From positions 1-45,350 of the forward strand of contig NZ_JAOTIF010000038.1 in the NCBI RefSeq assembly GCF_025628885.1: a DNA stretch of 45,350 nt. Reading direction: 5' to 3'. The stretch is from Paraflavisolibacter caeni (GTDB taxonomy: Bacteria > Bacteroidota > Bacteroidia > Chitinophagales > Chitinophagaceae). Shown here in pieces: positions 1-11,183 of the stretch. Position numbers and translations under genes: made by a program. The notes beneath the pieces are model-generated. The model was not told the origin of the DNA. It saw nothing but the letters and a program-made list of their open reading frames with translations, and ran no database searches. The stretch's first letter is position 1. Each line of letters opens with the position of its first letter.

Positions 1-183
1 CCTTCAACCCAATCGCTTTATTTGACCCGCTAATACAGAAACAGAAATTCTATTTACACAAACAACTAAAGGCTACCAACAGTGGTCTACTTTTTTAAAG
101 TATCCTGATACGCTCATCAGGATTTAGCGCAGGAGATAAGTGCAGCTGATACATTGAAATTAAAGGGATAAAAGTTGTATTGG

Positions 184-219
184 CGAAAGTTTTCTGGGAG
201 GGGAAAACTTTCGTTTTTT
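184..219 (+). terminator. Rho-independent terminator
   Basis: CGAAAGTTTT (184-193) pairs perfectly with AAAACTTTCG (204-213) across a 10-nt loop, and six Ts follow. It would stop + strand transcription from a gene ending left of the window, which isolates the cassette genes that follow from upstream transcription. Confidence 0.8.
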
Positions 220-265
220 GGGTTAAGCGTTTCAGAATGAATGGCGTTTTAAAATTGTTTTGAGA

Positions 266-297
266 TTAGCAGGGGTTAAAACTTTCCCATATTTTTG
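266..297 (+). promoter_or_regulatory. Possible promoter at the entry of the cassette array
   Basis: TATTTTTG at 290-297 matches the Bacteroidota -7 box TAnnTTTG exactly. The -33 position, 20 nt upstream, is TTAG, which matches three of the four bases of TTTG. Transcription would begin near 304, on the edge of the first cassette and about 20 bases before its ATG. This is the place an integron Pc-type promoter would occupy. The -33 match is imperfect, so it remains a candidate. Confidence 0.35.
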
Positions 298-325
298 AGT
301 TAGACGCAACAGTTCGCCATTCTTT

Positions 326-715
326 ATGGAATATTCAATCAAGTATGTCACCCGCATTTTATCTAAGAATGAATATCAAAATGAGTTTGACCTCATAATT
401 AATCTACTGCAACAACATCGCATAGGTCAAGTCGAATTGCTATTTGGGTTTGCTTGGGGAAATGAATATGGAGATTGGACTCCCCTTTTAACTCACCCAG
501 CCGATATTAGAAAAGAAATTCAAAAAGCACAGAGTACTGGAGCTGGCAGTTTCGGAAGCGATGATTTGTTTATGACATTGTCTGACCTGGAGACAGAATT
601 ACTTTTTTGCCATGAAAATGACGTTCATTTAGCATATAATCAAGATAACCCAATTGCAGGAGCAATTCTTGAAGGTTGGAGAAAAAAGGGGTTATTGCAT
701 CCGAGCTGCGTCTAA
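326..715 (+). CDS. Hypothetical protein, 129 aa (cassette gene 1)
   Basis: I do not recognise this protein. It has no signal peptide, membrane segment or obvious catalytic motif. It is acidic and rich in aromatic residues (for example LLFGFAWGNEYGDW around residues 38-51), which suggests a small soluble cytoplasmic domain. The ATG lies 21 bases after the sequence GTTAGACGC (299-307), and the TAA stop sits inside GCGTCTAAC (708-716), its exact reverse complement. The gene is therefore framed by a matched pair of ends, as integron cassette genes are, with the stop codon inside the recombination-site core. Its base composition is more AT-rich than the housekeeping genes further right. The reading frame is credible because of this framing, but the function is unknown. 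Confidence 0.6.
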   Translation: MEYSIKYVTRILSKNEYQNEFDLIINLLQQHRIGQVELLFGFAWGNEYGDWTPLLTHPADIRKEIQKAQSTGAGSFGSDDLFMTLSDLETELLFCHENDVHLAYNQDNPIAGAILEGWRKKGLLHPSCV

Positions 716-846
716 CAGCCAGTTTGCTACAATATTGGCTACTGAACATCTTGTAAACACCCGTAATTCTAATTATCTTCACCTCTAAACTAAACTACCG
801 TAACACAGACTGCCACTCCTGCAATGCAAGCTGTAACTCGTTAGCC
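710..846 (+). repeat. attC-like recombination site between cassette genes 1 and 2
   Basis: The site has the attC layout. An R''-like box GTCTAAC (710-716) is followed by an L''-like box CAGTTTGC (720-727), about 98 bases of poorly conserved centre, an L'-like box GCAAGCTG (826-833; 7 of 8 pairs with L''), and an R'-like core GTTAGCC (840-846). Extended outward, GCGTCTAAC pairs with GTTAGCCGC at 8 of 9 positions. Box spacing (3 and 6 nt) is close to, but not identical with, classical attC. Classical attC sites are about 55-140 bp, so 137 bp is at the long end. The assignment is by pattern only. Confidence 0.55.
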
Positions 847-876
847 GCAACCAATCCATGCCTAAACTATTGCCTT

Positions 877-1395
877 ATGAATAACTCTTTATATAAGTTC
901 AACCTAACAGCTAAGCAACAGTTCTTGGTGCTTATCCCCTTCTTCCTCATCAATATTGCCATAAGCATTGGAGCTTTTTATTTTTTTGAAAGTCCCAATA
1001 CCACAGCAATCCTTATTGGTGCTGCTGTTGTTTTTGTCCTCAATGTACTTCCTGTTTTAATTCTCCATATACAGTACCTGTTCAAAGGGCACAATTCTGT
1101 AGCCATAGACACCCAGAACAGAACCATTGAACTACAGGGCAGTGGTAGTAATAAAAAATACAGCTTGGACGACATAGCCTCATTTGATTATTACGCAACT
1201 CATGGGCACTGCTCTAAAAGGGGCAGCAGTTTGTGGTACACCTTTGACCCCTACAGGTTTTACAAGATTACTTTCAAAGACAATCATGTCGCATACATCA
1301 CTTGCCTTAGCATAAATGACATTGAAAATACACTTGAACCCCTTTTGGGCTTGCAGGCCGAGTGGAGATTTAGAGCCATCCCATTGCTTTATTAA
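877..1395 (+). CDS. Membrane protein of unknown function, 172 aa (cassette gene 2)
   Basis: Two hydrophobic segments (about residues 16-37 and 42-66) form an N-terminal membrane hairpin. A soluble C-terminal half of about 100 residues follows, with alternating beta-type pattern (IELQGSGSNKKYSLDDIASF, then FYKITFKDNHVAYITCLS). This architecture resembles bacterial PH-like domain membrane proteins, but I see no diagnostic motif and leave the function open. The gene is bounded by GTTAGCCGC (840-848) upstream and GCGGTTAAC (1404-1412) downstream, which are complementary at 8 of 9 positions, consistent with a cassette. The ATG is about 30 bases from the cassette edge and there is no clear ribosome-binding site. 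Confidence 0.65.
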   Translation: MNNSLYKFNLTAKQQFLVLIPFFLINIAISIGAFYFFESPNTTAILIGAAVVFVLNVLPVLILHIQYLFKGHNSVAIDTQNRTIELQGSGSNKKYSLDDIASFDYYATHGHCSKRGSSLWYTFDPYRFYKITFKDNHVAYITCLSINDIENTLEPLLGLQAEWRFRAIPLLY

Positions 1396-1405
1396 CCAAC
1401 AAAGC

Positions 1406-1540
1406 GGTTAACAACTATGTTGCCGGCATGCAGACCAAGTACTATCTTTAAGCTGTAAACCACTATTCAACAACAAAACAAAGTTGAAGCTGCTGGAACC
1501 CAGACTGCCTGCCCTGCGGTAACAACTGAGAACGTTATAT
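1406..1540 (+). repeat. attC-like recombination site between cassette genes 2 and 3
   Basis: R''-like GGTTAAC (1406-1412) is followed by L''-like GTTGCCG (1419-1425). Near the other end L'-like CGGTAAC (1517-1523) pairs with L'' at 6 of 7 positions, and the core GTTATAT (1534-1540) closes the site. The flanks extend the stem: GCATGCAG (1426-1433) faces CTGCCCTG (1509-1516). The length, 135 bp, nearly equals that of the preceding site although the central sequence is unrelated, as expected for attC sites, which conserve structure rather than sequence. Confidence 0.5.
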
Positions 1541-1547
1541 GCAAGCT

Positions 1548-2612
1548 ATGAGATCTTTAATAGTAAGTCTAATATTTCTACTGTTTCCTGCTTTCAATTA
1601 TGCTCAAAGTCAGACCTTTGAAGTTTTCGGTACTATTAGCGGAGAGCATAATAGCAGAATCTATCTTTTCTATGATGGTAATTACAAGCAAAGAGATAGT
1701 ATTAGTGCCGAAATAAAAAATGGCAAGTTTTACTTTAAGGCTACTGCTCCTTTACCGATTCAAGCCAGATTTCATTTAGATCACCAATCCTTTATCCAAG
1801 ATGTTTATATAGATAGCAAAAAGACATACTTCACCTGTACCAATAAAATCAATATCTATGGGAAGGACAAGGACACTATGAATATGTTTACAGTAGTTAG
1901 CGTAAAAGGCTCTAAAACTGAAGTGTTAAAAAGAGGTTTTGAAGATTGGCTGACTTCACTTAAGGCTTCAGACAAAACTGATGATGAAAAAAACCAGGAG
2001 TATTACGATAGACTTTTTGACCTGGTAAGCAAGAACCCAAAAAGCAAAATAAGTCCTTATCTTATCGGAAAGGCGACCAGCTTACGCTATTCACAGGTTA
2101 ACACCTTAAGCAGCTTGATTGACACTTCTTTAAAAAGCACCTTTGAAGGGAAAGGTATTCCAAAGCTGCTCAATAACTTAGATAAGTCGAAGAACAAAGC
2201 TATAGGTACAGCATTTTTAGACGTAACACTAAAGGATACTGTCGGTGCAATGCTAAACACTCAGAATCTAAGAGGAAAATTTATTCTTGTAGATTTCTGG
2301 GCATCTTGGTGTAAGCCATGTAGAGAAGCCAACCCTGCTTTAAAAGTGTTGTATAGCAAAGTAAAAGATAAGGGATTTGAAATACTTGGTGTTTCCTTTG
2401 ATAAAGATGAAGACAAATGGAAAACTGCTATTGTGAAGGACGGTCTACCGTGGATGCAAGTGGTTGATGAAAAAGGAGCATTTGGTGCATTAGGTAAGCA
2501 CTATGAAATTGAGGCAATTCCTCAAAGCATACTCCTAGACAGAGAAGGAAAGATAATTGGTGTGGGGCTCACTGCAAAAGAGATAGAGGAAACATTGAAC
2601 AAACTTATGTAG
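1548..2612 (+). CDS. TlpA-like thiol:disulfide oxidoreductase, secreted (cassette gene 3)
   Basis: A signal peptide (MRSLIVSLIFLLFPAFNYAQ) directs export. An N-terminal beta-rich segment of DUF4369 type (about residues 23-110) is common in Bacteroidota thioredoxins. A helical linker leads to a thioredoxin domain (about 215-354) with the active site WCKPC at residues 254-258 in the context FWASWCKPCREANP, and the cis-proline motif AIPQS. Such proteins reduce or reshuffle disulfides outside the cytoplasm. An in-frame ATG at 1539 exists, but it lies inside the GTTATAT core of the attC-like site, so I start at 1548, which gives a cleaner signal peptide. The gene is framed by TTATATGCAAGC (1535-1546) and GCCTGCATATAA (2616-2627), complementary with one mismatch. 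Typical TlpA paralogues in this phylum are chromosomal, so one inside a cassette is unusual. Confidence 0.85.
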   Translation: MRSLIVSLIFLLFPAFNYAQSQTFEVFGTISGEHNSRIYLFYDGNYKQRDSISAEIKNGKFYFKATAPLPIQARFHLDHQSFIQDVYIDSKKTYFTCTNKINIYGKDKDTMNMFTVVSVKGSKTEVLKRGFEDWLTSLKASDKTDDEKNQEYYDRLFDLVSKNPKSKISPYLIGKATSLRYSQVNTLSSLIDTSLKSTFEGKGIPKLLNNLDKSKNKAIGTAFLDVTLKDTVGAMLNTQNLRGKFILVDFWASWCKPCREANPALKVLYSKVKDKGFEILGVSFDKDEDKWKTAIVKDGLPWMQVVDEKGAFGALGKHYEIEAIPQSILLDREGKIIGVGLTAKEIEETLNKLM

Positions 2613-2627
2613 CAAGCCTGCATATAA

Positions 2628-2765
2628 TCGAGTAAGTTATTGGATTTTTTAAACCTGTCATACGTCAGAAGAAATTTAAACAAAGCACAATTACTTACTC
2701 AACCTGCTTTTAAAGTATTGTATAAAGAGCAACGCTGGATTGACATGATCAAACAACTAAATTAA
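2628..2765 (+). pseudogene. Possible C-terminal remnant of a TPR-type protein
   Basis: A + frame with no start codon is open from 2628 to the TAA at 2763-2765. Its last residues (PAFKVLYKEQRWIDMIKQLN) resemble the usual C-terminal end of tetratricopeptide-repeat proteins, where a P-x-F-x-x-L...DPRW-like motif closes the final helix. With only about 45 codons it would be a leftover fragment. The match is by eye and weak. It lies just beyond the third cassette-like gene. Confidence 0.25.
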
Positions 2766-2839
2766 TAAAACGGTATACAATAATTGCATTGCTAAAAGCG
2801 TGGCCCGACATTGTACTCATTACTTTTCCATTTACCGAT

Positions 2840-5800
2840 TTAAGGGGCTGGGTGGAGTACTTTGACGCTGTCGTTGTTCTGTACCAGCACATAGGCTTCC
2901 TTGTTGGCAAGGGTCAGTTTCCGTATGTGGCGTACCTGGCCTTTGAGGATCACGCCATTTAAAGACTGGTATTCGAAATTGCCGTGGCCTTTATTAATCA
3001 ACAGTGTTCCATAGTCGGCGTCATAACGCCCCATCTGGATGGTATTATCGTAAAAATTGCCTCCCATGAAAACATCTGGGAGGTGGTCGTTATTGGCATT
3101 GACTATGACGGCATCTTTATAACAGGTTAATTGTGCCTGCCAGGGCAATTCACGGACGGTGAATTTCCAGTTTCCCTCGTTTATGAGCACTGCATTTGAA
3201 AAATAATCAGCAGTCAAGACCTGGGCATTTTTCAGTTTGTCTTCGGTGAACAGCTCCTTCAAAGAGGCTTTTGCGAAGTCTTCCGCATAGAGGAACTTCT
3301 TTTTCAGGATTGGGATTTGTTTTTCCAGTTCAGCCTTGCTGGCGAATGGAATTTCTTTGCCGCCCAGGTAATAAGTGAGGATCTGCTCTTTTTTCCCATT
3401 GCCATCGAAGTCATTATAATACAACCTCACCGGACTGTTTTCGTCCGCTTTCAGACGATTGTTTTTACCCAGGTTACCTGCAATCAAATCAATATCTCCA
3501 TCACCATCTATATCAATGGATAGCGTAAAGTTCCACCACCCTTTTTTTTCTGTCAGCATTTTTTTTACAAACCTCCCCTTCTCATTGATCAATGCGCAAA
3601 TGCCATCCCACTCCAATGCCAAAACCAGATCGCTGTCACCATCCTTGTCGACATCGCACCAAACAGCACCCTTGACAAAGCCCACATTAGCAAGATCACG
3701 ACACCATTGGGGCGTAACATCTTTGAACCTGCCCTGGCCATCGTTTTGCAACAAATAAGAACGAGGCACCTGGCCGTATTCCCAAGGCACGGCCCTGCCG
3801 CCAATAAACAAATCAACAGCTCCATCACCCGTAAAATCGTAAGGCACAACACAGGAGGCCGTAAGGTAAAGACCGGTAAAGGCATCCTCTTTTCTAACCA
3901 AGCCACCTTTGCCATCGTTGATATAAACACGAGGCATCAAATGCTCGTCTGTACCGTAATACTCATTACCACCACTTGCTATTACAAGATCTAAATGATT
4001 ATCGTTGTTGACATCAGCCCAGACAGCATCCACATCTTCATAAGTACTGTCTTTATCTATTCCGGGCTGACTTGACTTCTTAAACTTACCTGAAGGCTGC
4101 TGCACAAACAGAACACTCTTTGTGCCTTTAGATGAACCAATAAACACATCCTCTCTCCCATCTCCATTTGCATCGCCAACTGTCAAAGCAGGCCCTTCGC
4201 GTGAAACCATATGCGGGATCAGGGGCTCCCGGTCAAATTCTACAAAAGGGTTTTCTTCATGCCGGTGCAGCAGGTTGACTTGCCGGGTAATGTCCTGAAC
4301 CTGAAAAGCAGCATTTGATCTTTTTGAAGTAAGCGTATGATAATTGAATTGTTGTAACCCTGGCTTGTAACCAATCCTGATTTGTGATGACCGAAGCGGG
4401 ACCGGAATTAACTGGTAAGTATTATCGGGCCAGATCAATACCATAGAATCAACCTTTGTTTTGTTCAATCCAATATGAATGGGTATTTCCATACTGGATT
4501 GAAAACCTTTGGCCTCATATTTCTCGTAGGTACGCATCTCTCCTGCCGCAAAAACAATCACTCTCGCCCCTACTGCATTTCTATTACCGCCAGGCCCATT
4601 CAACGTTATTTCTACAAAAGCGCTGCCTTTATCATCATTGCTCCTGTTTTGGTATAACAGAGCAGGCTCATCGATGTCATTCACTACAAGGTCAAGGTCG
4701 CCATCATTATCAAAGTCTGCATAAACAGCACCATTAGAAAATGTAGCGACAGCACCATCAATCCTGTTCTTGCTGTCTTCGAACAAGGCAGCGCCTTTAT
4801 TCCTAAAAAACTGGTTTGGAAGTTTAATTTGAGGGAAGTTGTTGATCATAGTCATTTCCTTTTCACTCACACTATTTGCCTGTATTTTGCCTTGCATGTC
4901 TTTGTTGGAAACAAAGTTGACATAATCAATATCATTCAAACGCCTGGGTATGCCGTTGGAAACAAACAGGTCTTTCAGTCCATCATTGTCAAAGTCCATC
5001 CAAAGAGGCGCCCATGACCAGTCTGTAGCGTACACACCAGCATACATACCCACCTCGCTGAACATGCCATTACCCCGGTTCAACTGCAGGCAGTTGTTAG
5101 GGTATTGAGGAGCGTATCCATAAGCCAGCTTCATGTTGAAAACGTTGTATTCGTCTTCACCCAGCGACCGTTTTAAAATATAGGGATCGTAAGGCATCAT
5201 ATCAAGCGAGATGATCTCCGGAAGCGCATCGTTGTTGATATCAGCAATGTCAACCCCCATGGAAAACTTACTGGTATGCCCAATGCAATTGGTCAGGTCT
5301 TCTTTGAAAGTGCCATTGTGCTGGTTGATGTAGAGGTAATCATTTTCATGGAAGTCATTGCCTATATAAATGTCAGGATAGCCATCGAGGTTGATGTCTG
5401 AAATAGCAATACCGAGACCGTAGCCTATGGAGGAGGAGTTGATGCCGGATGGACGGGTGACATCAGTAAAATGGCTCATACTTTCATTTCGATATAACCG
5501 ATCGCCAGAAAGTGAGTCATATGTACCGAGAAACATCTTGCGTTCTGCAAAGCTGCCGTTCTGGTGTACTGCATGATTCAGAAGATACATATCGAGATCG
5601 CCGTCCAGGTCATAGTCAAAGAATGCGGCTTGTGTACTGAAGCCAGCAAAGTCCAGACCGTACTCTTTGGCTTTATCTACATATACCGGTATGCCGTTCT
5701 TTATACCCTGGCAAATCAGAAATTGATTCCGGCCATGCAGGGTTTCATAATGCCCGACCTTACACACATATATATCCAATAATCCATCGCTATTAATATC

Positions 5801-6157
5801 CACTACAGAAACGCCGGTGGACCAGCCACCATCCTGCGGAATGGCAGCTTCAGCAGTAACGTCTTTGAACTGCAAGCCACCTTTGTTGAGATAAAGCTTG
5901 TTATCGCCCTGGTTAGATGCGAAGAATAGATCGATCAAACCATCGTTATTGAAGTCACCCGCACCAACACCTGCGCCATTATAGAAGTACATATAATTAA
6001 ACATGTTGAACTCCGGGGTTGTCGTCAGTTTATTGGTGAAATGCAGTCCTGTTTGCGTATGATCCAAAACTGTAAAAAGAGGAGGTTCAGCTTGTGGCGT
6101 ATGGCAACTGTACAAGATGAACAGGAAAAGGGTGATATGAATGCATCTATAAACCAC
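2840..6157 (-). CDS. FG-GAP/VCBS-repeat lipoprotein with ASPIC/UnbV domain (1)
   Basis: This 1105-residue surface lipoprotein has the signal sequence MVYRCIHITLFLFILYSC, ending in a lipobox cysteine. The N-terminal half carries many FG-GAP/VCBS blades with calcium-type loops such as DFNNDGLIDLFFAS and DYDLDGDLDMYLL, which build one or more beta-propellers. A central ASPIC/UnbV segment (about residues 515-600, including GARVIVFAAGEMRTYE) is followed by more blades. Proteins of this family often sit beside SusC/SusD pairs in Bacteroidota. The start codon is GTG; no ATG fits the signal peptide. It lies 44 bp downstream of its tandem paralogue and probably shares its transcript. The ligand is unknown. 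It could serve as a surface binding or scaffold protein, but that is inference. Confidence 0.85.
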   Translation of the reverse strand: MVYRCIHITLFLFILYSCHTPQAEPPLFTVLDHTQTGLHFTNKLTTTPEFNMFNYMYFYNGAGVGAGDFNNDGLIDLFFASNQGDNKLYLNKGGLQFKDVTAEAAIPQDGGWSTGVSVVDINSDGLLDIYVCKVGHYETLHGRNQFLICQGIKNGIPVYVDKAKEYGLDFAGFSTQAAFFDYDLDGDLDMYLLNHAVHQNGSFAERKMFLGTYDSLSGDRLYRNESMSHFTDVTRPSGINSSSIGYGLGIAISDINLDGYPDIYIGNDFHENDYLYINQHNGTFKEDLTNCIGHTSKFSMGVDIADINNDALPEIISLDMMPYDPYILKRSLGEDEYNVFNMKLAYGYAPQYPNNCLQLNRGNGMFSEVGMYAGVYATDWSWAPLWMDFDNDGLKDLFVSNGIPRRLNDIDYVNFVSNKDMQGKIQANSVSEKEMTMINNFPQIKLPNQFFRNKGAALFEDSKNRIDGAVATFSNGAVYADFDNDGDLDLVVNDIDEPALLYQNRSNDDKGSAFVEITLNGPGGNRNAVGARVIVFAAGEMRTYEKYEAKGFQSSMEIPIHIGLNKTKVDSMVLIWPDNTYQLIPVPLRSSQIRIGYKPGLQQFNYHTLTSKRSNAAFQVQDITRQVNLLHRHEENPFVEFDREPLIPHMVSREGPALTVGDANGDGREDVFIGSSKGTKSVLFVQQPSGKFKKSSQPGIDKDSTYEDVDAVWADVNNDNHLDLVIASGGNEYYGTDEHLMPRVYINDGKGGLVRKEDAFTGLYLTASCVVPYDFTGDGAVDLFIGGRAVPWEYGQVPRSYLLQNDGQGRFKDVTPQWCRDLANVGFVKGAVWCDVDKDGDSDLVLALEWDGICALINEKGRFVKKMLTEKKGWWNFTLSIDIDGDGDIDLIAGNLGKNNRLKADENSPVRLYYNDFDGNGKKEQILTYYLGGKEIPFASKAELEKQIPILKKKFLYAEDFAKASLKELFTEDKLKNAQVLTADYFSNAVLINEGNWKFTVRELPWQAQLTCYKDAVIVNANNDHLPDVFMGGNFYDNTIQMGRYDADYGTLLINKGHGNFEYQSLNGVILKGQVRHIRKLTLANKEAYVLVQNNDSVKVLHPAP

Positions 6158-6201
6158 GAATGCGCATGATTATAAAAGAATTGAAGATTGATTTTTAACC
6201 A

Positions 6202-9200
6202 CTATAACTGTTTTGATGGCGTATCCTTCTTTCTCACAAACATCTCAGGCTTTTCATTATTCCTTAGCCATAACCAATAATGCTTATCCTTACCTTTTAC
6301 TTCTACAATATCTCTTACTTCGCCAGTTACTTCCACACCTGATTCAATAGTACTGAGGTATTGAAATGTTCTTTTGCCCTTATTCAACAACACATGCCCA
6401 AAGCTGGCATCGAGGCGTGAAAACTGGGGCAGCAAGCCTAACTTGTTTCCACCCATTATTAAATCGGGTTTACCATCGTTGTTGATATCGCTAATATTGA
6501 TTGCATTGACGGATGACAATTGCACCATTAAAGGCAGCTTCTGAATGGAAAAATTTCCCTTCCCCTCATTGAAAGCAACAATGGTAGAAGCATCATTAAA
6601 TTGCTTTACTATACTTTGACTCAGCACATTTTCCTTAAACAATTCCTGAATGGATCTTTTGGCAAAGTCCGCATGCCGGAGATTTTGCTTGCGCAGGGAA
6701 ACAACCTGCTCTGTAACCTCTCTTTTCAGAAATACAGGCATATCTCGTTCATTGATTGTACGTGTAATAATTTTCTCCACTGCGCCATTCGCATCAAAGT
6801 CATTCATCCATAATTTAACAGGATGGGTTGCATCAGGTTTCAGGTAAAAGTTTTCACCAATGTTTCCCATCACCAGGTCCTGATCGCCATCACCATCCAA
6901 ATCAGCTGCAGCAACAGTTTGCCACCAGCCATGCAGGTTCTGCAAGTTGGTGCTCACTTCTTTGAAGCTGTTGTTTTGAAAAGTAAACACATGAGGGGCC
7001 ATCCATTCTCCAACAATGACCAGGTCTTCTCTTTTATCACCAGTAACATCAACCCAAGCAGCACCTGTTACCATGCCTATATAAGCAAGGGATGAACCCA
7101 TTGTTTTGGTAACATCTGTAAAATTGCCATGCCCATTGTTCACATACAAATGGCTTTGAGGAGACATACCATAATTCTGAGGAACACTGCGGCTACCAAC
7201 AAAAAGATCAAGGTCTCCGTCGCCATCAAAATCATTGGCCGCTACCACGGATGTGTTCATACCACTGAAAGGCAAGGCATTTACATCAATTTCGAAGTTT
7301 CCTTTCCCGTCATTGATGTACAACCGATCCTGGTACTCACGGCCCTGAGCAGGCATGTGGTTTCCACCTGAACCCACAAAAAGGTCCAAATCTTTATCAC
7401 CATCCGCATCAAAGAACAGTGCTGTCACATCTTCAAAAAGAGCATGCCGCTCAAAAACGGGTACATGCTTTTTTTCAAAGCCTTTAGCTGTCTGTAAGTA
7501 TAATTGTCCTGCCTGGCCTGCAGCTCCGCAGATATACACATCATCCCAACCATCTCCATTCACATCACCAACTGCGGCCTTGGGGCCTTCACGGGAAAGC
7601 ATTTCCGGAATATTACGTTCATTGTAGAAATCTGCATATTGATCTTCCTGGTGCTTCTCAAAATTATTTTGAACAGAGTCGAACAATACATGAGCACCAC
7701 TTTGCACAAAGCCAGCTGCTGTACCCGATCCAGGTATATGATTGGATACCTGGATCACCCCATCAGCAGTTTGTTTCACCAGATGTACTTTGTTTTTCTG
7801 AGGTGCGGTCATTTTGAACATTGAACGATCTGGCCAGGTGATCACAACCGAATCAATAGCCGTATGTTTACCCAGGCCTATGATCGTTTTATAATCCACA
7901 GAAGACTGGAAGCCACGGTTGGGCATAATTTCACGGGAAAGTATCTCCTTGCCAGCGTAGACCTTTATTGTACTGCCCACAGCAAAAGTATTTGGCGCTG
8001 TTCCTCTTAACAGAAAACCTATGTAATCATTGCCTTGCTGCTCCCGGCTGTTGTTCTTATATACAAAGGCTTTTTGATTGACATTGTTCACTACCAGGTC
8101 AAGGTCCCCGTCATTATCCAGGTCGCCATAAGCAGCACCATTGGAAAATGAAGGCTGGTTCAATCCCCAGGCAGCACTTTGATCAGAGAAGCGAAGACTG
8201 TCCAAATTCCTGAACATCTTATTGGGCAAAGGTTGAGAAGGCATTTTATTAATGATCTCATCTATCTCCTCTTTTTTGCCTGTCATGACCATGCGTTGAA
8301 TGATCTCATCGGCAAAGAAATCGATAAAGTCCTGGTCTGTCATATCATGATATATACCATTAGCAACGAAAATATCTAACAGGCCATCATTATCAGCATC
8401 CAGCATTAACCCACCCCAACTCCAGTCGGAGGCAGCCACACCGCTGAAAAATCCTGTTTCCAAAAACTTACCAGCCCTGTTATTGACCTGCAGCGTATTT
8501 TGCATGTACTGGTTATAAAAGCCTGAACGAATTTTTATCTGGTTGGTTTCATAAGTTTCAAAAGAAGTAGTGGTGCGCAGGCGGTAATCATCATCAGGAA
8601 GCATGTCGGTAGTGAAGATATCCGGATAGCCATCATTATTGATATCGCCGATATCGGCGCCCATGGAAAAATTGCTGATGTGTTGCATACAATTTACCAG
8701 GTCTTCCTTGAATGTACCATTCTTTTGATTGAGATAGAGGTAATCCCGTTCAAAAAAGTCATTGCTGATATAAATATCAGGGTAATTGTCCCCGTTTACA
8801 TCGCCAATTGTAACGCCAAGCCCGAAACCAATCAGGCTGCCATAGATATGAGCCTGCTGGCTGACGTCTGTAAACCTGCCATTGTCATTCCTCAACAGCT
8901 TATCACCGCCACCTTTCAGGAAATCCGCCACTGGCCAATCCTCTGCCCTGACTTCGCGTTTATTTGCATAATTCAGGGTATTCACTGGTATAAAGCTGTT
9001 TTTCAGAATATAACAGTCAAGGTCGCCATCCAAATCATAGTCAAAGAAGGCCGCATGAGTGGTATAGCCAGATTCATTAAGACCATATTCTTTTGCGCTT
9101 TCCGTAAAAGTGAGATCATGGTTATTGATGTATAATTCGTTTTCATTGCTGATACCTTTCTGATAGCCTGAATTGCATACGTAGATATCCAACCAACCGT

Positions 9201-9555
9201 CGCCATTGACGTCAGCAAAGACAACGCCTGTACCCCACTTACCATTATTGGTAAATCCAGCGTTAGCAGTAATGTCCTGGAATTGAAAATTGCCCTTATT
9301 CAAATAGAGCTTGTTACTCCCCATATTGGCCGTAAAAAAAACATCAGCCAGCCCATCGTTATTGATATCACCAATGGCAGCACCGCCACCGTTGTAAAAG
9401 TTGCGATAGACAAAGATGTTAAACTCCTTAGTATTATGGATATTATTGGCAAAATCAATACCTGTATGTTCCATCAACTGGAACAGAGGTTTGGATGGTT
9501 GCTTCTGGCAGGAACATAGGATTAGTATAATAGACAGATAAACGGGAATTTTCAT
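6202..9555 (-). CDS. FG-GAP/VCBS-repeat lipoprotein with ASPIC/UnbV domain (2)
   Basis: Paralogue of the neighbouring gene, with the same layout: lipoprotein signal MKIPVYLSIILILCSC, repeated D-x-D-x-D-G-x-x-D loops (DINNDGLADVFF, DYDLDGDLDCYIL), a central ASPIC/UnbV block (about residues 515-605), and a second propeller region. The longest frame begins at 9588, but that ATG lies inside the left arm of a perfect 15-bp terminator hairpin and would put 11 odd residues before the signal peptide. I therefore choose the ATG at 9555, giving 1117 aa. It follows susD of the second Sus pair, so its expression would come from read-through of that terminator or from an unseen promoter. The ligand is unknown. 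Confidence 0.85.
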   Translation of the reverse strand: MKIPVYLSIILILCSCQKQPSKPLFQLMEHTGIDFANNIHNTKEFNIFVYRNFYNGGGAAIGDINNDGLADVFFTANMGSNKLYLNKGNFQFQDITANAGFTNNGKWGTGVVFADVNGDGWLDIYVCNSGYQKGISNENELYINNHDLTFTESAKEYGLNESGYTTHAAFFDYDLDGDLDCYILKNSFIPVNTLNYANKREVRAEDWPVADFLKGGGDKLLRNDNGRFTDVSQQAHIYGSLIGFGLGVTIGDVNGDNYPDIYISNDFFERDYLYLNQKNGTFKEDLVNCMQHISNFSMGADIGDINNDGYPDIFTTDMLPDDDYRLRTTTSFETYETNQIKIRSGFYNQYMQNTLQVNNRAGKFLETGFFSGVAASDWSWGGLMLDADNDGLLDIFVANGIYHDMTDQDFIDFFADEIIQRMVMTGKKEEIDEIINKMPSQPLPNKMFRNLDSLRFSDQSAAWGLNQPSFSNGAAYGDLDNDGDLDLVVNNVNQKAFVYKNNSREQQGNDYIGFLLRGTAPNTFAVGSTIKVYAGKEILSREIMPNRGFQSSVDYKTIIGLGKHTAIDSVVITWPDRSMFKMTAPQKNKVHLVKQTADGVIQVSNHIPGSGTAAGFVQSGAHVLFDSVQNNFEKHQEDQYADFYNERNIPEMLSREGPKAAVGDVNGDGWDDVYICGAAGQAGQLYLQTAKGFEKKHVPVFERHALFEDVTALFFDADGDKDLDLFVGSGGNHMPAQGREYQDRLYINDGKGNFEIDVNALPFSGMNTSVVAANDFDGDGDLDLFVGSRSVPQNYGMSPQSHLYVNNGHGNFTDVTKTMGSSLAYIGMVTGAAWVDVTGDKREDLVIVGEWMAPHVFTFQNNSFKEVSTNLQNLHGWWQTVAAADLDGDGDQDLVMGNIGENFYLKPDATHPVKLWMNDFDANGAVEKIITRTINERDMPVFLKREVTEQVVSLRKQNLRHADFAKRSIQELFKENVLSQSIVKQFNDASTIVAFNEGKGNFSIQKLPLMVQLSSVNAINISDINNDGKPDLIMGGNKLGLLPQFSRLDASFGHVLLNKGKRTFQYLSTIESGVEVTGEVRDIVEVKGKDKHYWLWLRNNEKPEMFVRKKDTPSKQL

Positions 9556-9573
9556 GGCGGCGCGATAATTAAC

Positions 9574-9609
9574 AAAGAAAAAGGTCATGTTTGAATGACC
9601 TTTTTCTTT
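9574..9609 (-). terminator. Strong hairpin terminator downstream of susD (second locus)
   Basis: A perfect 15-bp inverted repeat (9574-9588 and 9595-9609) closes on a 6-nt loop. Its outer bases are A-rich on one arm and T-rich on the other, so it can terminate in both directions. It starts 17 bases after the susD stop codon and ends 18 bases before the ATG of the next gene. In operons of this kind such a hairpin usually lowers expression of the distal genes relative to susC/susD; that role is inferred. Confidence 0.85.
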
Positions 9610-9626
9610 ATTTGAGAAGTTACGAA

Positions 9627-11183
9627 TTATTGAGTATAACCATCATTTTGCTTTAAATTCGGATTGACGGCTAAAGCCGTATTTGGTATAGGGAACAACA
9701 AACACTTCTTAGGTGACACGTTTGGCTTTAAAGCATTAGGTTGTAAAAATGTACCAAAGCGGATCATATCTTGCCTTCTTGAACTTTCCCAGTAAAGCTC
9801 ACGGCCTCTTTCATCGTATATTGAAGTGAGGTTGAGGGTAGTCAATGAAGATGCGCCACGTTTAGTTCTTATTTGATTAACCAATGGCAAAGCATTGGCA
9901 ACATCATTATTTTTTCTTATCAATGCTTCTGCTTTCATTAATAAAACATCAGCATACCTGTAGAAGACCCAATCGTTATCAGGGTTTGTCTTATCTGTAT
10001 AACCCTTTTCTGGATCATAATCCGGAGCATACTTGAGTACCCGGATTCCGGTTGTTTCCAGGTTTGGTCCTGTCTCTACAAGTTTTACATCTCTTGTAAA
10101 GGCAAGCGGAGCACCACCGCGCTGCTTTATCTGGTTACCACTTGCATCAAATTGCTGCCCAATCAAAAATCCAAGTCTCAAGCCGGTTTTGTCAGTTATA
10201 CCAGGATAAGATACTCCCCTTCTTGTATCACTGGCTTCAAATTTATCATAGAAATCTGCAAGTGTAGTAAACCCATTCCAACCATCTGGTTTTTGGTTGT
10301 AATGCAAAGTGGAACGCCATGCTGTTTTTACTCTATTTCCATTATCTCCTTTACTCCGAGGATTCCCTTCTATGTTTTCTAAGGTAAAGATATTTTCTTT
10401 AGAAATTGCATTATTGTTCGGAGCAAAATTGTCAAAAAAGTTATTCGCCAAAGTATAACCAGTAATTTCATTTGCCAGGCTGATGACTTTATCCATGTCT
10501 TCGACAGCAAAAGTGGGTGCTTCCCTGTTTGCAAAAACACCTTTATTTAAATAGCATTTCATTAACAATACGCGCGCTGCATTTTTATTGGCCTGGTAAG
10601 CAGGAACACTGGCACCTTCTGGAAGGCTAGGCAAAATGGCATTCAGCTCACTAATAATAAAATTAATTGCATCTACCCCATTCAATACTTTTGGCGCATT
10701 TAACAGGTTTTCACCTGGTTCCCTGAATGGTACTTGTCCGAATAAATCCGCTACAGAAAACATGGCAAAAGCTCTCAAAAACCTAGCTTCAGCAGCCTGC
10801 TGAGTTGACGGTTGAAAATTCAAAGTATTTGTTGCACTAAACACGACCTTTAAAAGAGAGTTAAAGGCACCATTGATACGCGGATTTTCTGAATTCCATG
10901 TATGGCTATGCAATGCAATCCAGTTACCGTTATCCCCCCAGTCAGTACCCCTTGTAGGGGGAACAGCTTCGTCCGTGGAATGTTCTGAAAGTCCCCATAC
11001 GTTATCAGCATTTACATATGCTTCACTTAGGCCATCATACGCTGTGATCAGCAGAGCATTCACGTCTGCAATTTGTTGCGCCTGATCATATGTTGCACTT
11101 CCTCTTAACTCTTCATCCAGTTTAGTGCAACTAAAGAAACTGAAGGCGAGTAGCAGAATGAGTGACAATAATTTATATTTCAT
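9627..11183 (-). CDS. SusD/RagB-family nutrient-binding lipoprotein (second locus)
   Basis: A 518-residue SusD-type outer-membrane lipoprotein. The signal peptide ends in a lipobox (SFFSC, Cys 19). The N-terminal SusD-like helical region carries TPR-type helices (AEARFLRAFAMFSVADLFGQ), and the C-terminal RagB/SusD domain has the typical YRYADVLLMKAEALIR and RRQDMIRFGTF segments. SusD proteins cap the extracellular face of the SusC barrel and bind the substrate. The gene starts 18 bp after the preceding SusC gene, so the two are co-transcribed. No degradative enzyme is next to this pair, so the substrate cannot be inferred. Confidence 0.95.
   Translation of the reverse strand: MKYKLLSLILLLAFSFFSCTKLDEELRGSATYDQAQQIADVNALLITAYDGLSEAYVNADNVWGLSEHSTDEAVPPTRGTDWGDNGNWIALHSHTWNSENPRINGAFNSLLKVVFSATNTLNFQPSTQQAAEARFLRAFAMFSVADLFGQVPFREPGENLLNAPKVLNGVDAINFIISELNAILPSLPEGASVPAYQANKNAARVLLMKCYLNKGVFANREAPTFAVEDMDKVISLANEITGYTLANNFFDNFAPNNNAISKENIFTLENIEGNPRSKGDNGNRVKTAWRSTLHYNQKPDGWNGFTTLADFYDKFEASDTRRGVSYPGITDKTGLRLGFLIGQQFDASGNQIKQRGGAPLAFTRDVKLVETGPNLETTGIRVLKYAPDYDPEKGYTDKTNPDNDWVFYRYADVLLMKAEALIRKNNDVANALPLVNQIRTKRGASSLTTLNLTSIYDERGRELYWESSRRQDMIRFGTFLQPNALKPNVSPKKCLLFPIPNTALAVNPNLKQNDGYTQ

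Follow-up and report, generated by a model that had tools for sequence, protein, structure and literature searches.

A probable integron platform with a decayed integrase end in Paraflavisolibacter caeni, linked to a family of patchless tyrosine recombinases

The window analysed here is the stretch of 45,350 nucleotides from position 1 of contig NZ_JAOTIF010000038.1 of Paraflavisolibacter caeni, and positions 299–2628 of it consist of three cassettes that adjoin an attI-like stretch, ahead of which lies the relic end of an integrase gene (Table 1). The open reading frame of cassette 1 has no family match in Pfam or NCBIfam and that of cassette 2 matches no Pfam family above the cut-off. Cassette 3 ends in an end-box relic, GCATATAAT at 2620–2628, without an attC, and no third attC was found in window 1–3200 even with filters off. 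Rfam gave three matches on window 1–3000, all below the gathering score and taken as chance, among them one at 1079–1134 (−) to a family of human origin. The other strand beside the array encodes, at 2840–11183, two FG-GAP/ASPIC-UnbV proteins and one of the SusD family (Pfam), a content that is ordinary for the phylum; positions 5210–5377 and 8614–8781 are 75% alike.

Table 1 Features of the array in the window (position 1 is its first nucleotide)
Feature	Position	Strand	Description
Relic 3' end of integrase gene	109..171	+	Frame 1 open stretch ending YAHQDLAQEISAADTLKLKG, stop at 169–171; alignment with the C89 integrase fragment
attI-like stretch, head of array	154..298	+	Similarity continues to 305
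Cassette 1	299..839	+	GTT core to base before next core; ORF 326–715
attC-type site 1	708..848	+	R1 92.6 bits (training site); R3 E 2.8e-8
Cassette 2	840..1533	+	ORF 877–1395; membrane protein predicted by the earlier reader
attC-type site 2	1404..1542	+	R1 109.3 bits (training site); R3 E 1.3e-9
Cassette 3	1534..2628	+	ORF 1539–2612, DUF4369 + thioredoxin-like protein (Pfam)

Searches of the genome with the spacers of the window matched other contigs, and 21 sites from six stretches align as one family of 139–142 nt with the common motif ACNCAGACT. The earlier note, made from the letters of the window, had stated that the two spacers share no sequence outside their boxes; this was wrong: ACMCAGACTGCC is common to both, and the spacers align with the 19 other sites of the genome. 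The inner helices covary, with changes on both sides in 10 of the 13 predicted pairs, and the covariation score of the 21 sites is 0.395 compared to 0.180 for shuffled alignments (reached in 0 of 500) and 0.05–0.11 for slid structures. For 98 sites from the class, in an alignment that was fitted to the model, the score is 0.429 compared to 0.134 and the inner helices are 97.6–97.7% paired. We used three covariance models, of which R1 was built from sites of this genome only; R1 and R2 both contain sites of this genome, and their scores for the window sites are therefore by construction. R3 was built from genomes of other families only, with sequences picked by R2 among genomes of the class, and finds both window sites (Table 1). 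On the 7.0-Mb genome, R1 gave at least 75 matches at E ≤ 1 and at least 65 at E ≤ 1e-3, including the 21 training sites, these counts being lower bounds because 150 candidates were scored; matches of palindromic sites on the opposite strand, which occurred at times, were not counted. The length of the sites is narrowly distributed: of 361 sites in alignments A3, A6, and A7, 324 have 130–149 nt and 23 have 190–209 nt, with few between. Of the checks that the earlier note had proposed, scoring with a covariance model places the attC-type sites far above background and the search for more sites in the genome was productive. Among seven sites folded as single-stranded DNA, six of them as the strand opposite the genes, two folded better than shuffles, and the window sites did not.

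We name the boxes and write the cut as G^TT as is general for integrons, in which the start box of a cassette should pair with its end box because both derive from the single site of a circular cassette. The complementary ends that had been noticed around the three genes are indeed there: GTTAGACGC at 299–307 pairs with GCGTCTAAC at 708–716 at 9/9 positions, GTTAGCCGC at 840–848 with GCGGTTAAC at 1404–1412 at 8/9, and TTATATGCAAGC from 1535 with GCCTGCATATAA, ending near 2627, at 11/12; the stop codon of gene 1 (713–715) lies inside its own end box, as had also been said. We compared the two ends of 79 cassettes from this genome and its family, left from 91 neighbouring site pairs after removal of 12 in which the core had changed. 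Within a cassette, start box and end box pair at 5.13 of six variable positions, compared to a mean of 2.88 after shuffling (highest of 2000 shuffles, 3.27) and 3.60 after shuffling within loci (highest, 4.30), and 61 of the 79 pair at five or more. The two boxes of one site, by comparison, pair at only 3.08 of six (n = 113). A first, hand-made scan for sites had required pairing between precisely these two boxes and for this reason missed nearly all sites. The same pattern was observed in further families of the class, at 20 loci that are absent from R1 and R2: 5.48 of six positions pair (n = 48, 37 of them perfect; one of 49 pairs was dropped for a changed core), while the controls gave 2.94 for shuffled boxes (highest, 3.56) and 2.74 for the boxes of one site (n = 88). 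Pairing within a cassette is thus beyond chance, and the cassette reading of the earlier note holds. The cassettes begin and end with the paired halves of their own site, the arrays consist of small genes with one site each that has R and L boxes and paired helices, and the longest ORF lies on the strand of the site in 147 of 149 cassettes.

The last 16 codons of the open stretch at 109–171 match the end of an integrase fragment on C89 of the same genome, both in translation and in the alignment, and the 152 nt at 154–305 are 90.1% identical to the stretch directly behind that fragment. Because of this relic, the C89-like stretch, and the start of cassette 1 at 299, we read the window array as what appears to be an integron platform with a relic integrase; the rest of the gene lies beyond the start of the contig or has decayed. 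The earlier note had seen no integrase in the window and considered either an orphan array or a recombination system that is related but undescribed. The remnant at 109–171 speaks against the absence of an integrase; the relic together with the attI-like stretch, and an intact recombinase at the head of another array in this genome, speak against an orphan array, so that the second alternative is the better fit.

This other array, on C47, shows the device complete, with an intact tyrosine recombinase (386 aa from ATG, analysed as the 390-residue open frame P0001) followed by co-directional small genes that are separated by attC-type sites. Further copies of the recombinase are broken on C13 and C52 and a fragment on C89, each with sites downstream on the same strand. 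Behind the recombinase lies an attI-like stretch; the ten such stretches compared in the genome fall into two sequence types, eight have a common motif, and sites follow further downstream. Four attI-like stretches are preceded not by a recombinase but by a related ORF of ~200 aa without a Pfam match, located at L095:4808–5416 (+) and, on C12 (20 kb), C56, and C6, ahead of the respective stretch. The broken integrase of C52 is separated from the array there by an IS91-type transposase and a second Xer-like recombinase (L061:1759–3804, −).

To this we add 40 loci of homologues, taken from the top of the homologue list minus the copies of this genome, a truncated second hit in G159, and G119 (= L094), which also has an array; G187 contributed two loci. 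Using R2, sites follow the recombinase downstream and on its strand in 17 of the 40, and the array is divergent in three, such that the integrase stands beside an array in 20/40, the window having a relic only. With R1, i.e. with sites of this genome only, the numbers are 13 and 2; some training sites of R2 lie in the 40 loci, and none of them in the five loci that R2 added to the fifteen of R1. The other 20 loci are cut off by a contig end less than 1.8 kb away on the side of the array, 17 times downstream and three times upstream, and the three with an upstream end carry a recombinase of the divergent clade; we regard these contig ends as weak evidence. The two layouts recur among the 20 loci from class genomes, of which three contain the recombinase (two in the first layout, on the same strand, and one in the second, divergent layout), and in ten further same-contig pairs, with four in the first layout, five in the second, and one, on contig 16 of G277, with recombinase and site 141 kb apart (G234 is in both counts). 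R1 gave one weak match, in L076, on 11 named loci of distant homologues; the linkage to arrays was therefore not seen outside the genomes of this class, except perhaps in L076. Homologues with the N-terminal domain also occur in Paenibacillus (L071–L073) and on a few Bacteroidota plasmids, e.g. NZ_CP041688; close to the Paenibacillus genes, no site was detected with R1 and a single weak match with R2.

The recombinase scores 187.8 bits against the IntI model TIGR02249 (cut-off 265) and 196.3 bits against the XerA model NF040815 (cut-off 220), and lies far below the cut-offs for XerC and XerD; in the search for IntI-type recombinases that had been proposed, nothing in this genome passed the IntI cut-off. 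In an alignment with IntI4, 21 residues of the recombinase stand against 64 of IntI4, and the KDR and HxxRH boxes are 61–65 residues apart in 43/43 homologues compared to 103 in 12/12 canonical IntI; the recombinase thus lacks the IntI patch. In the rows shown, which cover part of the 43 homologues, the catalytic residues of tyrosine recombinases are present, and so is an SPxDxL end, with which both homologues and IntI close and which may hint at common descent of the two. Among solved structures, those of archaeal Xer proteins are the closest. The homologues have an N-terminal extension before the core-binding domain, with a median of 116 residues (from 12, in a truncated copy, to 157), and the N-terminal domain contains a conserved GxxWSxTHKCWYxP. 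Pfam matches to 28 N-terminal domains were weak, i.e. DUF5710 in ten (best 6e-5) and HARP in two (best 2.5e-3), and the best match of an N-terminal-domain profile among PDB sequences had an E of 0.88. A structure predicted for a Paenibacillus homologue with three relatives (mean pLDDT 67.7, pTM 0.33) retrieved tyrosine recombinases at low TM in a fold search and no match for the N-terminal domain. A quick tree, in which the outgroup branches are long, unites the IntI rows in one clade and places the homologues in a group that includes the second C52 recombinase on a long branch; recombinases with the divergent layout form a subclade of six rows with a support of 99.

Sites were found in at least 73/195 genomes of the family (R1, E ≤ 1e-3) and at least 173/395 genomes of the class, which we take to be Bacteroidia (R2, E ≤ 1e-4); both are lower bounds, with 16 candidates scored per genome in the family and eight in the class. 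The recombinase was detected at E ≤ 1e-45 in 83/149 class genomes. Of 124 class genomes, 53 have both recombinase and sites, 18 only the recombinase, 15 only sites, and 38 neither (p 2.9e-7 with kinship ignored), a count that takes G613–G736 to be all in both samples, the no-match genomes (46 for the recombinase and 202 for the sites) being unlisted. Canonical IntI, in turn, was found at E ≤ 1e-60 in 107/395 genomes of the phylum (105 over the cut-off), and 106 of these 107 belong to other classes, the share of this class in the 395 being uncounted; no canonical IntI over the cut-off was found in the family members examined.

Sequence comparison also indicates that cassettes move as whole units. 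Within this genome, C47 and C78 have a common unit of 665 bp that is 95.6% identical and extends from the GTT to the base before the next core. Between families, four pairs of genomes (G866/G495, G119/G887, G638/G119, and G810/G234) have units of ~1.0–1.5 kb that are 99.7–100% identical and stand beside different neighbours. In two of these pairs the left flanks, which were read, differ up to the core, and in the other two the similar block starts at the core or at most five bases from it; on the right, all four differ after the core. The edges are less exact in two weaker pairs, G786/G810 and G126/G707, where the similar part begins only 50 and 140 bases into the unit. The earlier note had named as the contrary outcome genes and spacers conserved in order across distant relatives with no cassette-sized indels; instead, cassette-sized units recur beside different neighbours. 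On the right side, 7 nt separate the L' box from the GTT core; they are the same in two of the four near-identical pairs and have two and four differences in the other two, where the adjoining 40 nt are identical, which is not as predicted by a cut at G^TT only. We treat this behaviour, seen in a small number of pairs, as a lead: strand exchange may differ from the classical one, and a staggered two-strand exchange would allow the 7 nt to stay behind.

We conclude that the locus is very likely, with a probability of roughly 80%, an integron platform composed of a decayed integrase end, an attI-like site, and three cassettes, and belonging to a patchless-recombinase family that is common in the class. 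According to this explanation, the patchless tyrosine recombinase, with its extra N-terminal domain, would insert circular cassettes by recombination between their attC-type site and either the attI-like site or a further attC. Exchange at the GTT core would leave the two boxes of one site at opposite ends of the inserted cassette, the gene of which would read away from the landing site. The window copy would need an integrase in trans, e.g. the intact C47 recombinase. The sequences themselves show the sites with their covarying helices, the box pairing within cassettes, the two fixed layouts of recombinase and array, and the exchange of whole cassettes between families. We infer that the recombinase is the catalyst; the site would act as a folded strand, and the N-terminal domain would take the place of the patch. 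Against this explanation we count the class genomes that have just sites (15 of 124) or just the recombinase (18 of 124), the distance of 141 kb on G277, the folds of the window sites, the 7 nt that were not carried along in two of the four near-identical pairs, and the late start of similarity in the two weaker pairs. Going further, we lean toward the view that a second integron lineage is widespread in Bacteroidia, in which an Xer-like, patchless recombinase with a DUF5710/HARP-like N-terminal domain runs cassette capture, and which would have gone unseen so far because integrases are recognised by the patch.

We also considered that the sites could form a CALIN-type attC cluster that is made or served by a canonical, patch-bearing IntI, in trans or since lost, with the linked recombinase as a passenger. 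This appears improbable. Such an IntI does occur elsewhere in the phylum, in classes other than this one, and the 15/124 class genomes with sites but no recombinase at E ≤ 1e-45 would fit, yet none was found over the cut-off in this genome or the family members examined, the recombinase and the arrays keep fixed relative layouts, and R2 finds no site in 12 canonical-IntI loci, these being only 2.5–3.9 kb long. Alternatively, the cassettes could be real but owe their movement to the XerC/XerD of the host or to an element of the IS91 type, the adjoining recombinase having another role; we consider this more improbable still. Against the Xer-like character of the recombinase and the IS91-type transposase and second Xer-like gene between integrase and array on C52 stand the fact that the IS91-type gene was seen in the C52 array alone, the absence of sites from two stretches of 20 kb in which Xer genes of this genome lie, and the fixed layout among the 40 loci (20 with an array and 20 cut by a contig end), which favours the linked recombinase.

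Least probable is a reading of the sites as an intergenic RNA or a terminator, with intervening genes that are not mobile units. Covarying stem-loops between genes are what such an element would look like; however, the outer boxes pair across the gene and not within the stem-loop, the common units begin at a GTT beside unrelated sequence, and no Rfam family reaches its gathering score in window 1–3000. The box pairing and the common units already contradict it.

If the preferred reading of cassette capture by a patchless recombinase is true, a large gene-exchange network would exist in a class for which the passages available report very little: those from PMC9024848 give In0 elements and one complete integron, in Salinibacter, for Bacteroidetes, and those from PMC8618304 list Bacteroidota among the phyla with integrons. 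Arrays headed by a patchless recombinase would also make the claimed need for the IntI extra domain directly testable and be a natural comparison for the origin of integrons from Xer. In the parts seen, PMC9024848 has the extra domain mark IntI and ties it to the use of folded single-stranded sites, PMC9668308 calls the domain around it necessary for integron recombination, and both PMC9668308 and PMC8352920 describe or select IntI by it. A search based on the patch would miss recombinases of the present kind and would call the window array a CALIN, although a CALIN has no integrase beside its sites and the window has a relic integrase end at 109–171. In openly licensed PMC papers, we found no description of such patchless-recombinase arrays. 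The passages on an 'integron-like' subgroup in Smyshlyaev et al. (PMC8138268) draw no connection to cassette arrays; they state that the IntI insertion is not fully conserved in this subgroup, so that such proteins may have been classified before.

Compared with known systems, the system-level features of integrons that could be tested are present, while the integrase fails both IntI-specific tests. As in IntI integrons (sedentary chromosomal integrons and CALINs), promoter-poor small genes stand in tandem with one site each, there are a GTT core, R and L boxes, and complementary boxes at cassette start and end, an attI-like stretch lies beside the integrase gene, and whole cassettes are exchanged. 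Unlike in IntI integrons, the integrase here is without the patch, carries an additional domain at its N-terminus, and scores under the IntI cut-off, and the range of site lengths is narrow, with 324/361 at 130–149 nt. Inverted integrons, as far as described in the passages of PMC8352920, likewise have integrase and cassettes on one strand, as is the case here for 17 of the 20 array-bearing loci; they have an IntI with the patch, whereas the recombinase here is patchless and has a divergent subclade, too. With XerA, XerC, and XerD, the recombinase shares the lack of a patch, and archaeal Xer proteins are its closest solved relatives; it differs from them in scoring below the model cut-offs, in an SPxDxL end like that of IntI (rows shown), and in its linkage to arrays.
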